From Lachnospiraceae bacterium (GTDB lineage Bacteria; Bacillota; Clostridia; Lachnospirales; Lachnospiraceae), in NCBI GenBank assembly GCA_017449765.1, contig JAFTFE010000183.1, positions 1-47,555 on the forward strand: a stretch of DNA of 47,555 nt, in the 5' to 3' direction. Both the position numbers and the translations under genes were made by a program. Each line of letters begins with the position of its first letter. The stretch's first letter is position 1. Under the pieces are notes generated by a model, which was not told the origin of the DNA, searched no databases, and saw only the letters and a program-made list of their open reading frames with translations. Positions 23,888-47,301 of this stretch are shown piece after piece.

Positions 23888-24469
23888 ATGGCGGATTTTA
23901 TAACAACATATTCAAAGATTAATTTTACACCTCTTGAGCCTGAGCCTGATGATATTAAAATCGAGGATATTGCACATGCTTTGTCTCTTATGTGCAGGGC
24001 AAACGGACACTACAGTGAGTTTTATTCGGTCGGAGCACACTCGATAAATTGCTATGATGAAGCAGTAGCCAGACAGGAGAGTGAGAGGGTTAAGCTTGCA
24101 TGTCTTCTGCATGATGCATCAGAAGCTTATCTTTCTGACATAACAAGGCCTGTTAAGAAGAATCTCGACAGATATATGGAGATAGAAGAGCATTTACAGA
24201 ATCTCATTTATGAGAAATTTTTAGGTTCACCGCTTACTCCATATGAGATACAAATGGTTAAAACCATAGATGATGCATTGCTATATTGGGAATTCTATGA
24301 ATTCACCGCAGTAAAATTAGGAGAAGCTGAACCTTACGTGGCCATGACACCGGACTTTTATAAAGGAACTATGAAGCAGGTAGAGACAGCTTTCCTTGAA
24401 GCCTTTAACAGCATAGATTTAAGCAAGGATAAAGAAAAGGTTACAATAAAATGGACCTTGAAGGCATAA
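23888..24469 (+). CDS. HD-domain phosphohydrolase (YfbR-like)
   Basis: The 193-residue protein is an HD-domain metal-dependent phosphohydrolase: His51 in 'SVGAHSINC', the His75-Asp76 pair in 'CLLHDASEAYLSDITRPVKK', and a later acidic 'KTIDDALLYWEF'. This arrangement is close to YfbR-type 5'-nucleotidases and similar phosphohydrolases that act on nucleoside monophosphates. The location right after pyrE makes a nucleotide substrate attractive but unproven. The usual second-domain extensions (RelA, GGDEF) are absent. Only a weak ribosome binding site (GAGG) is visible. A large palindrome separates it from the convergent MerR gene. Confidence 0.8.
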   Translation: MADFITTYSKINFTPLEPEPDDIKIEDIAHALSLMCRANGHYSEFYSVGAHSINCYDEAVARQESERVKLACLLHDASEAYLSDITRPVKKNLDRYMEIEEHLQNLIYEKFLGSPLTPYEIQMVKTIDDALLYWEFYEFTAVKLGEAEPYVAMTPDFYKGTMKQVETAFLEAFNSIDLSKDKEKVTIKWTLKA

Positions 24470-24485: not shown

Positions 24486-24777
24486 GTCGGTTAGATATTT
24501 AGGTATACTCTAATGGTATATCACACTGAGACTGGCAGTCAGGAAGCAGGCAGTTACGCAACATGCAAGCAATTTGCTAAATCAGTAAATTCGAATTCTC
24601 TACGCTCTGCACGAAACAGACAACTCGCTTCGCTCAGACAGTCTGTTTCTGAGCGAGCCTATTCGAATTCTCGTTTTTGATTTCACGCAAATCGTGCAAA
24701 TCGTTGCTATAACTGCCTACTTCCTGCCTGCCGGTCTCAGCATAATATACCATTAAAGCATACCATATCTAACCGAC
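24486..24777. repeat. long intergenic palindrome, family 1, copy 1
   Basis: A 292-bp imperfect palindrome fills the gap between convergent HD and MerR genes. GTCGGTTAGATAT (24486-24498) pairs with ATATCTAACCGAC (24765-24777); further paired blocks include TAATGGTATAT with ATATACCATTA, GAGACtGGCAG with CTGCCgGTCTC, and AGGAAGcAGGCAGTT with AACTGCCTacTTCCT. The centre (24601-24662) is 62 nt identical to the copy after htpG and holds two competing hairpins, GAAACAGAC/GTCTGTTTC and CGCTCAG/CTGAGCG. ACGCTGCGCGT follows the right arm in both copies and abuts the MerR stop codon. Confidence 0.9.
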
Positions 24778-24788
24778 ACGCTGCGCGT

Positions 24789-25628
24789 TTATTGATATAC
24801 CTTTTCTATCTCCTGTGCCAGAAAGTCAGATGCTCCATTGCCCAGTTTTTCATCAATCTTTTTATATACCATTTCGTTTCTTAATGATTTTGCTAAGGAT
24901 AACATCATTGCTTTTTCGTCTTTCATTCGATAGAATTTTTTACATCCTGCACCGTATTCTGAGATTGATTTTGATATTTCACGTGAATTTCCGCTGTCTT
25001 TCAGTGATATAATATTTGTAATTATTGTATCTTCCCATTGCTTGAATTCCTGATTTTCTTTTTGTGGAACTTTTTCTTTGAGAAAAGATAAATAGTTATC
25101 CTTATTTCCATACATTTTTACAATTTCCGCATATTGTTCCTGCAGTTCCTTAGAAGAAAGAATTTCAATATAGTGTTTTTTCCATTCTTGAATGCTGCCG
25201 AATTCTTTAATCGCCAATTCCTGTATATCTTTTGGCATACGATTGGTCATTATTAAAAACATTTCTTCTAATTCAGACTTATTAAAAATAGAAAAATCCA
25301 TTGAGGTTTCGCCTTTTAAAACTTCATCAATGCCTTCAATCAGACGTTCTATACGTTCTTTTTTTGTGATAAGCATATTCTTTTGCATCGTAAGAATTTT
25401 GCATTTATCAAGGTCGGGATTATTGATAATCGCTTTTATTTCCTTCAATGAAATATCAAACTCGCGAAAAAACAAAATCTGTTGAAGAATTTCAAGCTTT
25501 GTATCATCATAAAGCCTGTATCCAGCGTCGCTTTTCAAGGACGGAGTTAATAGATCTATTTTATCATAATAATGAAGTGTACGTACGCTGATGCCTGTTA
25601 ATTTGGATACTTCTTTGACTGTTTTCAT
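24789..25628 (-). CDS. MerR-family transcriptional regulator
   Basis: The N-terminal ~70 residues are a MerR winged helix: 'MKTVKEVSKLTGISVRTLHY', 'YDKIDLLTPS', 'GYRLYDD'. A dimerisation helix follows, and then a ~170-residue C-terminal domain rich in Glu, Lys and aromatic residues that should bind an effector, as in TipA- or BmrR-like members, though I cannot name the domain. Start at 25628 (279 residues) is preferred: a longer frame from 25664 would overlap the -10 box, and CTCCTT (reverse AAGGAG) lies at 25640-25645. Its own promoter has the 19-bp spacer typical of MerR targets, so it likely controls itself. No transporter or other obvious target gene lies next to it. Confidence 0.87.
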   Translation of the reverse strand: MKTVKEVSKLTGISVRTLHYYDKIDLLTPSLKSDAGYRLYDDTKLEILQQILFFREFDISLKEIKAIINNPDLDKCKILTMQKNMLITKKERIERLIEGIDEVLKGETSMDFSIFNKSELEEMFLIMTNRMPKDIQELAIKEFGSIQEWKKHYIEILSSKELQEQYAEIVKMYGNKDNYLSFLKEKVPQKENQEFKQWEDTIITNIISLKDSGNSREISKSISEYGAGCKKFYRMKDEKAMMLSLAKSLRNEMVYKKIDEKLGNGASDFLAQEIEKVYQ

Positions 25629-25663
25629 ATATTTATAATCTCCTTTATCTCTTGATATAACCA

Positions 25664-25694
25664 ACTATAAACTATAACGCCACGTCAGAGTCAA
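25664..25694 (-). promoter_or_regulatory. MerR-type promoter with 19-bp spacer and internal dyad
   Basis: On the reverse strand TTGACT (25689-25694) and TATAGT (25664-25669) are 19 bp apart. The spacer region holds an imperfect dyad, ACTCTGACG-TGG-CGTTATAGT (25671-25691; 7 of 9 pairs). Over-long spacers with a central dyad are the classic operator of MerR activators. Confidence 0.72.
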
Positions 25695-44311: not shown

Positions 44312-44337
44312 ATAATCAATATAAAATAAATCCAGGA

Positions 44338-44380
44338 GGAACGCCTATGCCGCAAAGCGGCATACTTTTAAATGCGTTCC
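44338..44380 (+). other. structured htpG leader: nested hairpin covering a start codon
   Basis: GGAACGC (44338-44344) can pair with GCGTTCC (44374-44380), enclosing a perfect 7-bp hairpin ATGCCGC/GCGGCAT (44347-44353 with 44357-44363). The structure would mask the AGGAGG and ATG of the small leader ORF. Confidence 0.55.
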
Positions 44381-44406
44381 GACGATTTGCCGCCGAACGA
44401 ATGTGA
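44347..44406 (+). CDS. possible 19-residue leader peptide in the htpG leader
   Basis: ATG at 44347 lies 7 nt after AGGAGG (44334-44339) and opens a 19-codon frame (MPQSGILLNAFRRFAAERM) ending at TGA 44404-44406, 32 nt before the htpG ATG. Both its ribosome site and its start codon lie in a hairpin. It is too short for homology; it may be a translated leader that couples to htpG, or chance. Confidence 0.4.
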   Translation: MPQSGILLNAFRRFAAERM

Positions 44407-44438
44407 GGGGCGTAACAAATTTTAGGAGGAATGTTAAA

Positions 44439-46454
44439 ATGGAAAAACAGGGAAGCTTATCAATTAACAGCGAGAATATATTCCCGATTATCAAGAAATG
44501 GCTTTATTCAGACCACGACATTTTCATAAGAGAGCTTATTTCAAATGGCTGTGATGCAATTACGAAATTAAAGAAGCTTGCCATGATGGGCGAGTTTGAG
44601 GAGGTTGAAGGAGAGGAGTACAGAATAGATGTTTATGCATCTCCAAAGGATAAGACAATAACCTTCGTTGATAACGGACTCGGTATGACTGCTGAGGAGG
44701 TTGAGCAGTATATCAATCAGATTGCATTTTCGGGTGCAACTGACTTTATCAATAAATATAAGGATAAATCAAATGATGACCAGATAATAGGTCATTTCGG
44801 ACTTGGATTTTATTCAGCATTTATGGTAGCTGACAAGGTTACTATCGAGACTTGCTCATATAAGAAGGATGCTGTACCTGTATTCTGGGAATGTGACGGC
44901 GGTACGGAATTTAGCATGACCGAGAGCGATGACGATACCAGAGGAACGGCAATTACTTTATATCTTAACGAGGACAGTTATGAGTTCGCAAATGAATACC
45001 GTGTAAGAGAGGTTATTCAAAAGTATTGTGCTTTTATGCCTTACAATATCTACTTTACCGACGAAGACAAGGCTGAGGAAGAGGCTAAGAAGAAGGCTGA
45101 GGAAGACAAGAAGAAGGACAAGGTTATCGAGGTTGACACAACTGAGGAGGATGATCTTGTAGGTGATACTGCTGATAAGAAGGATGCGGAGGATAAGGCT
45201 GATACTGATGCAGAGAGCAGCGAAGTTTCTTCCGATGAAGAAAACGAGAAGAAGGAGACTCCGCTTAATAACACCAATCCGCTTTGGCTCAAGAATCCTA
45301 AGGATTGTACTGATGAGGAGTATGTTGATTTCTATCAGCATGTATTCTTAGACTTTAAGAAGCCTTTGTTTTGGATACATCTTAATATGGATTATCCGTT
45401 TAATTTAAAGGGTATTTTATATTTCCCTAAGATTAATCCGCAGTACGACCAGCTTGAGGGAACGATTAAATTATACAATAATCAGGTGTTTGTAGCTGAC
45501 AATATCAAAGAGGTTATACCGGAGTTCCTTATGCTTCTTAAGGGTGTAATCGACTGTCCTGATATACCGCTTAATGTATCAAGAAGTGCTCTTCAGAATG
45601 ATGGTTCGGTTAAGAAGATTTCCGACTATATCACGAAGAAGGTTGCCGATAAGCTGTCCGGTATGTGCAAGACAGATAGAGAAGAATATGAGAAATACTG
45701 GGATGATATCAGTCCGTTTATAAAATTCGGCTGCTTAAGAGACGATAAGTTCTGTGAAAAAATGACCGATTATATGCTGTTCAAGAACCTTGAGGGTAAG
45801 TATATTACGCTTCCTGATTATCTTGAGGCAGGCAAAGAAAAATACGAGAACAAGGTATTCTATGTGAGTGATGAGATTGCACAGTCACAGTATATCAATA
45901 TGTTCAAGGAAGAGGGCATAGACGCAGTTTACCTTACTCACAATATTGATAATCCGTATATCACTCACCTTGAGAGCAAAAATGAGAATGTTAAATTCTT
46001 GCGTATAGATGCTGACCTTGCGGATAATTTCGTAGGCGAAGCGCTTACCGAGGAACAGACTAAGGAATATACGGATAAGCTTACCGAGACCTTCAAGAAA
46101 GCTACAGGCAAGGATAAGCTTACTGTCAAGGTTGAGAGTCTTAAGAATGAGAATGTATCATCCATGATTACATTATCAGAGGAGTCACGCCGTATGGCTG
46201 AGATGATGAAGGCATACAGTATGCCGGGCATGGATCCGAATATGTTCGGTGATGAGGGAGAAACTCTCGTACTTAATGCCAATAATAAGCTTGTCAAGTA
46301 TGTGCTTGACAATCCGGAGGGTGAGCATACGAATACAGTATGTTGCCAGCTTTACGACCTTGCAGTGCTTGCCAATAAGCCTCTTGCACCGGAGGCGATG
46401 ACCGCATTTGTAGCAAGAAGCAATGAAGTGCTGAATATCCTCATAGGAGAGTAG
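44439..46454 (+). CDS. htpG: molecular chaperone HtpG (Hsp90 family) with a charged linker
   Basis: HtpG is the ATP-driven bacterial Hsp90. ATG at 44439 (AGGAGG at 44424-44429) gives 671 residues; GTG at 44403 is rejected. The GHKL ATPase domain shows 'ELISNGCDA' (33-41), 'DNGLGM' (78-83) and 'GHFGLGFYS'. Residues ~207-274 form a Lys/Glu/Asp-rich linker ('KAEEEAKKKAEEDKKKDK', then Asp/Ser-rich), followed by 'PLWLKNPKDCTDEEY', the start of the middle domain. E. coli HtpG lacks such a long charged linker; eukaryotic Hsp90 has one in the same place. Control by HrcA is shown by the perfect CIRCE site. Confidence 0.95.
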   Translation: MEKQGSLSINSENIFPIIKKWLYSDHDIFIRELISNGCDAITKLKKLAMMGEFEEVEGEEYRIDVYASPKDKTITFVDNGLGMTAEEVEQYINQIAFSGATDFINKYKDKSNDDQIIGHFGLGFYSAFMVADKVTIETCSYKKDAVPVFWECDGGTEFSMTESDDDTRGTAITLYLNEDSYEFANEYRVREVIQKYCAFMPYNIYFTDEDKAEEEAKKKAEEDKKKDKVIEVDTTEEDDLVGDTADKKDAEDKADTDAESSEVSSDEENEKKETPLNNTNPLWLKNPKDCTDEEYVDFYQHVFLDFKKPLFWIHLNMDYPFNLKGILYFPKINPQYDQLEGTIKLYNNQVFVADNIKEVIPEFLMLLKGVIDCPDIPLNVSRSALQNDGSVKKISDYITKKVADKLSGMCKTDREEYEKYWDDISPFIKFGCLRDDKFCEKMTDYMLFKNLEGKYITLPDYLEAGKEKYENKVFYVSDEIAQSQYINMFKEEGIDAVYLTHNIDNPYITHLESKNENVKFLRIDADLADNFVGEALTEEQTKEYTDKLTETFKKATGKDKLTVKVESLKNENVSSMITLSEESRRMAEMMKAYSMPGMDPNMFGDEGETLVLNANNKLVKYVLDNPEGEHTNTVCCQLYDLAVLANKPLAPEAMTAFVARSNEVLNILIGE

Positions 46455-46479: not shown

Positions 46480-46770
46480 GTCGGTTAGACTGTATGGTAT
46501 GCCCTGATAGGTAATTGGAATTAAGACCGACAATATAAAAAGCAGGCAGTTTGCCAACACGCAATCAATTTGTTAAATCAGTCAACTTGAATTCTTTACG
46601 CTCTGCACGAAACAGACAACTCGCTTCGCTCAGACAGTCTGTTTCTGAGCGAGCCTATGCGAATTCTCGTTGCTGATTTGACACAAATTGTGCGAATCGT
46701 TGGCATAACTGCCTGCTTTTATTTTGCCGGAATTAACACAGCTTCTATCAGGGCATACCGTCTAACCGAC
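46480..46770. repeat. long intergenic palindrome, family 1, copy 2
   Basis: This 291-bp palindrome fills the gap between convergent htpG and the lipoprotein gene. GTCGGTTAGAC at the left pairs with GTCTAACCGAC at the right, and inner blocks (GGTATGCCCTGATAG with CTATCAGGGCATACC, AAAGCAGGCAGTT with AACTGCCTGCTTT, GCCAAC with GTTGGC) pair in turn. The core 46597-46658 is identical to 24601-24662, and ACGCTGCGCGT follows in both. The arms differ between copies yet stay self-complementary. Confidence 0.9.
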
Positions 46771-46790
46771 ACGCTGCGCGTAAAAAAATT

Positions 46791-47243
46791 TTATTTATGC
46801 TGCCAAGTACCGATTATATAGAAGTTTTTGTTAATCTTCTCACTATCCATAGTCGTGTACCATGTCTTTATAGATTTAATTGCTTTCTTTGGTTTTTCAG
46901 AATACAATAATCCCATTGTTTTTGTTTCATCGTTCCAAAATATTACATAGGAATCTTCAATCCAAATATATGAAAAATCCTGCTGTGCAATTTCAACACA
47001 TGACTTTATTTCAGCGATATCTTCAATATCAGATAAGACCACGACATATCGTTCTGCTTTGCCATCAATGACCTTGTATTTATCATTTTTACAGTTATTT
47101 AAAACATATTCGGCAACAAGTTTATAATCCGAAAGATTTTTAGAAAGCCTTTCTGCTTCAGAACTTTTGCTGCAACCATATATGGAAATCAAAAAACAAG
47201 CTATTAATATTGATACAATAATTTTTTTGTGAGTCAATCTCAT
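46791..47243 (-). CDS. lipoprotein of unknown function
   Basis: The 150-residue protein starts 'MRLTHKKIIVSILIACFLIS' followed by 'IYGC', a signal peptide with a lipobox and Cys24 as the lipidation site, so it is probably anchored on the outer face of the membrane. The mature part is rich in Lys, Asp and Tyr with alternating strands ('YVVVLSDIEDIAEIKSCVEI', 'DSYVIFWNDETKTMGLLY'); I recognise no family. Start 47243 is chosen over 47273 for the GGGAGG upstream and the clean signal. It has its own promoter and is convergent with htpG across a palindrome. Confidence 0.78.
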   Translation of the reverse strand: MRLTHKKIIVSILIACFLISIYGCSKSSEAERLSKNLSDYKLVAEYVLNNCKNDKYKVIDGKAERYVVVLSDIEDIAEIKSCVEIAQQDFSYIWIEDSYVIFWNDETKTMGLLYSEKPKKAIKSIKTWYTTMDSEKINKNFYIIGTWQHK

Positions 47244-47272
47244 ACTTTCTGCCTCCCAATTCATATATTTCA

Positions 47273-47301
47273 ATATTAATTAATACGTTAAATATTGTCA
47301 A
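47273..47301 (-). promoter_or_regulatory. promoter of the lipoprotein gene
   Basis: Reverse strand TTGACA (47296-47301), 17-nt spacer, TAATAT (47273-47278), about 30 bp before the start codon. Confidence 0.7.

Follow-up and report, generated by a model that had tools for sequence, protein, structure and literature searches.

What are the two long palindromes in the window, by which we mean the whole 47,555-nt stretch of Lachnospiraceae DNA analyzed here, and how can their arms differ from one copy to the other and still pair? A preliminary description of the sequence had pointed to two palindromes of ~290 nt with a common 62-nt center, the same end words and the same flank, and each of these features is found at both copies (Table 1). 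Positions 24601-24662 and 46597-46658 are identical at 62 of 62 positions, with the next base differing on both sides; GTCGGTTAGA and TCTAACCGAC lie at 24486 and 24768 in copy 1 and at 46480 and 46761 in copy 2; and ACGCTGCGCGT follows each copy. As had also been stated, the arm sequences of copies 1 and 2 are unlike each other, yet each pairs within its own copy. Folded as single-stranded DNA with dinucleotide shuffles as control, copy 1 reaches -77.9 kcal/mol (shuffle mean -28.2; z -13.1) and copy 2 -82.1 kcal/mol (shuffle mean -31.3; z -14.4); an equal or better fold was obtained in 0 of 200 shuffles for either copy.

Copy 1 fills the gap between the convergent ORFs 23888-24469 (+) and 24789-25664 (-, MerR-like), and copy 2 has an Hsp90 gene (44403-46454, +) on one side and a reverse-strand ORF (46791-47273) on the other. 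The flanking ORFs 23888-24469 and 46791-47273 have no Pfam match. This Hsp90 gene, the 3' end of which lies ahead of copy 2, has a GA-cis RNA (RF02987, 71.9 bits) at its start (44331-44421).

Table 1. Positions of the two palindromes and their parts in the window.
Feature	Positions	Strand	Remark
Copy 1, long imperfect palindrome (arms and tip)	24486..24777	+	R1 match 24560-24705
Copy 1, left arm, private sequence	24486..24559	+	end word and shell words common to a subset of copies
Copy 1, conserved tip/core	24560..24705	+	146 positions of model R1; conserved irregularities
Copy 1, apical loop ACTCGCTTCGCTCAGACA	24623..24640	+	exact matches in other genera of the class
Copy 1, right arm	24706..24777	+	
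Copy 1, small foot hairpin ACGC-TGC-GCGT	24778..24788	+	adjoins 3' end of convergent ORF at 24789
Copy 2, long imperfect palindrome	46480..46770	+	R1 match 46556-46701
Copy 2, conserved tip	46556..46701	+	R1 match
Copy 2, apical loop	46619..46636	+	
Copy 2, small foot hairpin	46771..46781	+	

A search of related genomes, as proposed in the preliminary description, showed that the palindromes are not an isolated pair but members of a high-copy family. With copy 1 as the query, 35 matches were obtained at E <=0.001 in the genome that carries the window (G000), some of them partial or self-reverse; by reading, these matches have the tip in common and differ in their self-pairing arms, and a subset also has a common outer shell. 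We built a covariance model, R1, from 46 diverse tips and searched 37 genomes of the genus with 85 candidates scored per genome, a procedure that may give low counts. R1 matches are present in at least 15 of the 37 genomes: at least 25 places in G000, at least 22-49 places each in G004, G008, G015, G019, G022, G023 and G024, at least 10 in G012, at least 5 in G032, and at least 1-3 in five other congeners. Among the 85 candidates scored per genome, no match was seen in 22 of the 37.

In samples of 392 genomes from the order and 391 from the class, the exact 18-nt loop is found in 20 and 30, respectively, the latter belonging to 22 of 222 genera; both counts include G000. The reversed 18-mer, used as a control, gave no match in the class sample and three in the order sample, the latter confined to two genomes in which the motif itself is present. 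Outside the genus, 31 of the 35 exact-loop sites scored against 20 shuffles are long hairpins (our own locus L254 was excluded and one site was lost at a contig edge), and the sites L260, L261, L270 and L271 fall below the long-hairpin threshold. One genome from another genus of the same family, G283, holds 72 exact copies on two contigs; among the genomes listed, the 16 other members of its genus, g26, have no exact loop. Most of the named genomes with the repeat are Lachnospiraceae MAGs from the rumen; the exceptions are one MAG from mouse gut and Clostridium bowmanii. In these two the loop occurs 147 and 10 times when up to two mismatches are allowed, and the reversed-pattern control is likewise high (106 and 7) because the loop motif is nearly a mirror repeat and mismatches are allowed. 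The exact loop pattern has no match in the viral contigs scanned, and the window tip has none in phages or plasmids by distant blastn. The literature that we searched yielded no description of this hairpin repeat; the loop core string or its complement appears there in at least six papers, all on other subjects as judged by title.

The two palindromes are copies of a large, dispersed, intergenic family of ~300-nt DNA hairpin repeats, patchy across Clostridia, many of them from the rumen or gut. In being multi-copy, intergenic and patchy the family is REP- or MITE-like in kind, as had been suggested, and it is best filed with the dispersed palindromic repeats. Several copies in G000 lie at contig ends (C25, C71, C109, C122, C148, C183), and therefore the repeat probably breaks draft assemblies of these bacteria.

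Outward from the tip, the element consists of the 18-nt loop ACTCGCTTCGCTCARACA, a variable stem, an internal loop, further covarying stems and the arms, and in our own genus a conserved block around AAATCAG/CTGATTT lies between the covarying stems and the arms. The conserved tip comprises the loop and ~64 nt per side with conserved irregularities. The arms, often ~30-80 bp, are locus-specific in sequence and self-complementary at each locus; copies lacking self-complementary arms, which the preliminary description had looked to as counter-evidence, are not the pattern observed, since the 16 copies drawn and 25 of 26 copies drawn from G283 have long ones. The boundary between the two parts is sharp in G283, where the profile covers 25 of the 26 drawn copies, from 30 loci of the 72 places: within 60 nt of the loop, mismatches plus gaps amount to 18-33% in each 10-nt bin, and at 61-110 nt to 3-9%, rising farther out, such that an irregular tip is kept next to a nearly perfect arm. 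Our own genus (91 copies) has a rougher, less sharp boundary, with 12-46% up to 60 nt, 20% at 61-70, 7% at 71-80 and 18-38% thereafter.

Small foot hairpins stand 3' of both window copies. In several congeners the unit is formed by two long hairpins arranged tail-to-tail with a short perfect hairpin between them, and G283 holds five tail-to-tail pairs, 400-530 nt apart. Four tips carry an extra ~80-nt repeat at the same kind of place (L063:1277, L114:6899, L120:1312 (+), L099:4595 (-)); a scan of the loci and the window that allowed up to six mismatches found no further copy of it. It might be another mobile element, one restricted to a narrow target, or else a sign that tips have been exchanged. 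At L047 (G022), a tandem repeat with a unit like ATACGGACTATTTTGCATAAAG follows one hairpin.

The pairing of the tip is supported by covariation. We used 46 of the 87 remaining tips, mutually <88% identical, in the tip alignment A1, having left out tips with insertions (L063, L114, L120, L113) and L101/L104; L072+600 (a reverse copy) and L059 (a loop insertion) were left out of both tip and arm analyses. In this alignment 93.5% of cells are paired (78.6% in shuffles), 32 of 44 pairs have changes on both sides, and 322 cells are double changes compared with 93 in shuffles, none of 500 shuffles being as high; structures slid along the alignment gave 27-41. The covariation first suspected from two copies is thereby borne out. 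The two mutually exclusive center hairpins of the preliminary description fared less evenly: the alternative can be drawn in the tip type of the window, but it lacks covariation support because in 46 diverse tips it amounts only to the near-invariant CTCA and TGAG, and TGAG is missing beside the loop in the five G283 pairs read.

The arms behave similarly without being conserved in sequence. For 17 of 18 ortholog pairs that could be scored, within-copy complementarity averages 0.87 (0.60-1.00), and arms at the same site in two species are identical at a mean of 0.70 (0.33-1.00), random copies giving 0.54. In two G283 clusters of 8 and 14 copies, the within-copy arm match is 0.93 and 0.95, and the between-copy match 0.79 and 0.66. 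Arms conserved without compensation had been named as a second kind of counter-evidence; among the 143 arm pairs that have changed in 12 chosen ortholog pairs, 46 show compensation.

Covariation is usually taken as proof of a functional RNA, and a structured RNA was among the identities first considered. The element might be a 3' UTR hairpin acting as an mRNA stabilizer, a terminator or a processed RNA, in which case compensation would reflect selection for RNA pairing. Its placement is compatible with such a role: the copies are mostly at gene 3' ends, and of 87 copies 44 have convergent, 41 tandem and 2 divergent neighbors (typed for the 87 of 94 copies with a called neighbor on both sides, using simple ORF calls and counting paired copies twice). 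REP-like repeats are placed in the same way, as would be any sequence that does harm in promoters. Also in favor of an RNA role, the pckA copy of G004 adjoins a hairpin that resembles a terminator and has a T run; against it, the tip is found in either orientation among tandem copies (25 forward, 16 reverse).

The wobble pairs bear on this more directly. In a selected RNA, G·U should be tolerated and A·C should not. Scored symmetrically over 91 copies, those with short flanks being left out, the arms have 133 G·T and 212 A·C and the tips 113 and 114, counts that, like those below, come from related sequences and hence are not independent events. On the transcribed strand, assigned by the upstream gene in tandem settings and omitting the 2 divergent copies, the G·T/A·C counts are 90/84 in the arms and 52/47 in the tip. 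The plus strand of the tip gives 27 G·T vs 53 A·C, and 25 vs 51 at covarying pairs. For 30 RNase P RNAs from the genus, run through the same steps, the counts are 391 G·T vs 4 A·C (45/1 at covarying pairs). The minus strand of the tip, folded alone, is the exception in favor of RNA, with G·T 131 vs A·C 20 over all pairs and 65 vs 19 at covarying pairs; this ratio is far below that of RNase P, and a weak preference or mild selection on the minus strand is possible. Rfam at gathering thresholds over the whole window reports only the GA-cis RNA, away from the element, and at permissive thresholds it has no match in the element region. Wobble pairs are thus tolerated no better than A·C, unlike in RNase P, which argues for a DNA-level process: the arms are apparently matched through DNA rather than RNA, the repeats are probably maintained at the DNA level, and we regard an RNA-level element as unlikely.

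We give a small chance to the possibility that the repeat is a REP/RAYT system (Y1 HUH) or derives from another known insertion sequence, as a MITE of a DDE transposase would. The conserved irregularities and loop recall REP recognition (PMC8266576). Direct repeats of >=7 nt, as a target-site duplication would leave, are present at the edges of 6 of 25 G283 copies vs 1.4 expected (5.8%), an excess that is marginal, as the largest shuffle reached 25% and with it the observed fraction. The transposase-recognized hairpin of the preliminary description is weakened in its Y1 version: PF01797 (Y1) is found in 8 of 37 congeners but in only 2 of 8 high-copy genomes, it has no match in G000 or the other 6 high-copy genomes, and it is present in 6 genomes without copies. 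We therefore rejected Y1_Tnp as the mover, its presence not tracking the copies. Upon reading the two window copies, we saw no GTAG 5' of the hairpin at either. Ten ORFs between or beside nearby copies (listed from L248, L252, L270, L011 and L367-L371, where L252 and L270 end before the second copy) contain no transposase family by Pfam; they belong to hydrolase, CoaE, melibiase, aldo/keto reductase, zinc-ribbon, glycosyltransferase and peptidase families or have no confident match. The PF01797 scan of 37 congeners and these 10 ORFs thus yielded no enzyme for the repeat.

Comparison of sites with and without the element bears on another explanation, to which we assign a slim chance, namely that the conserved tip inserts into the loops of pre-existing chromosomal palindromes, the arms being those of the host. 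Private arms beneath common tips, and nearly identical arms carrying different tips, would both be expected from this, whereas arms form families within a genome as if they had moved together with the tip. At spoIIA, the element is present in G000 and G004, which keep the usual terminator upstream of it. In 28 element-free genomes the intergenic region spans 74-221 nt and the loop motif is found in none of the 28; 21 have only terminator-sized inverted repeats (loops <=12 nt), which, like the terminator kept in G000 and G004, speaks against such insertion, and 7 have, at the place of the terminator upstream of spoIIAA, ungapped arms of 12-21 nt round a 60-65 nt loop (L165, L166, L168, L169, L173, L175, L176), the latter in favor of it. 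Near eno, the tip is present in G024, and G008 has the same outer palindrome without a tip, a state that suggests deletion between short AAC repeats rather than an unoccupied target. Upstream of eno in G023 (L313) there is, by reading, a long palindrome with arms apparently homologous to the ones in G008 and G024 but with a different interior that lacks the loop motif; an arm-like palindrome of this kind is in favor of insertion. At pckA, again by reading, G004, G008 and G024 have the element and G000 and G023 lack it; in G019 it continues past the contig end. Presence and absence at spoIIA, pckA and eno indicate that the sites are dynamic.

The order in which changes accumulate can be followed in G283. 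Copy pairs that are >=90% alike (7 pairs from 6 copies, not independent) have 24 one-sided and 6 two-sided compensated changes; those 80-90% alike have 46 and 34; and those 60-80% alike have 203 and 588, such that changes between diverged copies are often compensated in this genome too. One-sided changes come first, and two-sided changes accumulate and later outnumber them, a succession in keeping with mutations that are afterwards corrected to match the opposite arm. That the one-sided stage is visible fits poorly with arms synthesized afresh at every move, or with purifying selection strong enough to hide that stage. Snapback copying at transposition, in which the second arm is self-primed at the tip such that new copies are perfect and differences two-sided from the start, would account for the sharp boundary at ~60 nt and near-perfect long arms of G283, but is highly improbable given the mostly one-sided changes between the closest copies there and the compensated arms of same-site orthologs.

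The pace of arm evolution is uneven. Two-sided changes make up 24% and 12% in two ortholog pairs whose fourfold-site divergences are 0.23 and 0.09, rates that would be fast for ordinary compensatory substitution. Across the 12 ortholog pairs, the two-sided fraction shows no steady rise with divergence: at fourfold divergences of 0.25 and 0.65, respectively, two-sided changes are absent from L066/L087 and L085/L106, and the arms of L026/L070 and L049/L110 are near the unrelated level at 0.16-0.17. As described in PMC8794818, template switching in replication can repair stem pairing and give compensatory changes. The arms of the repeat are likely matched by such quasi-palindrome correction; selection on the DNA hairpin, which these comparisons do not separate from templated correction, is possible instead.

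The tips appear to have a history of their own. In the G004 ortholog of copy 2, the left outer part is 99% identical, the right 83% and the tip only 63%. The tip of copy 2 itself is 97% identical to that of another G004 locus (L082), and the tip of the G004 ortholog is 93% identical to that of another G000 locus (L009). The simple reading is that tips were swapped between loci by conversion. Most of the genomes being drafts or MAGs, this exchange may in part be an artefact of mis-assembly; the correctly paired arms indicate that the assemblies do not generally jump between loci. A footprint of one-arm rewriting was looked for in copy 2, with a mixed outcome. Three candidate patterns were rejected: a clean core inversion at pckA (L122 vs L049/L110), where the arms are almost as dissimilar as unrelated ones and the core of L122 reads as another subtype; a clean core inversion at L052/L066, whose arms are likewise near the unrelated level; and a replichore orientation bias in G283, for which the complete list of 72 copies mixes strands.

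Based on these observations, we propose, at about even odds, that the palindromes are a dispersed hairpin repeat in which (i) the arms are rewritten by template switching, (ii) the tip is selected and recognized, and (iii) tips are exchanged between loci. The region would fold when single-stranded, as on the lagging-strand template, during repair or in a cruciform, and DNA synthesis would switch template onto the opposite arm, with the result that one arm is rewritten and the two drift together. Selection may keep the irregularities of the tip, with a putative trans-acting protein recognizing the folded hairpin; by analogy with the Y1 proteins of REP, this protein could also have spread the element. 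Ectopic conversion limited to the common tip would swap tips between loci. If this proposal is correct, each locus has a private self-complementary pair of arms beneath a common, exchangeable tip. More tentatively, and in our estimate somewhat less likely than otherwise, the repeats may form a Clostridia-wide class whose tip is recognized in folded form by a putative non-Y1 enzyme and whose sequence-free arms are continually rewritten by hairpin-templated synthesis.

Very strong covariation here comes without wobble tolerance on the modeled strand, and at many natural loci, which provides a chance to measure hairpin-templated DNA rewriting and to distinguish it from RNA selection. The family also points to a putative hairpin-recognizing activity in Clostridia and to genomes that tolerate dozens of long, near-perfect palindromes.

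Among known systems, the structured non-coding RNAs of Rfam are like the repeat in their strong covariation, and differ from it in that the repeat lacks wobble tolerance on the plus and transcribed strands and has no family match. MITEs and palindromic intergenic repeats, for which we take RUP, ERIC, Correia/NEMIS and YPAL to be the comparison families, are likewise short, dispersed, non-coding, built of inverted repeats and patchy between lineages, and the terminal inverted repeats and high copy number of MITEs are both found here; unlike in MITEs, the tip and not the ends is most widely conserved, and the arms covary at each locus. Quasi-palindrome template switching offers a replication mechanism that restores stem pairing through compensatory changes; in PMC8794818 it is described for RNA genes, whereas in the present case its targets would be dispersed DNA repeats, dozens of them in each genome. 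REP/BIME elements with TnpA-REP (RAYT) have in common with the repeat their high-copy intergenic palindromes, conserved irregularities of loop and stem and some inverted pairs, the counterpart of BIME pairing in the Clostridia repeat being the tail-to-tail pair. They differ in size, E. coli REPs being 29-37 nt (PMC8266576) compared with ~290 nt here, and in the GTAG foot and cognate Y1 protein: the window copies have no such foot, Y1 does not track the copies, and the arms of the Clostridia repeat are free in sequence.
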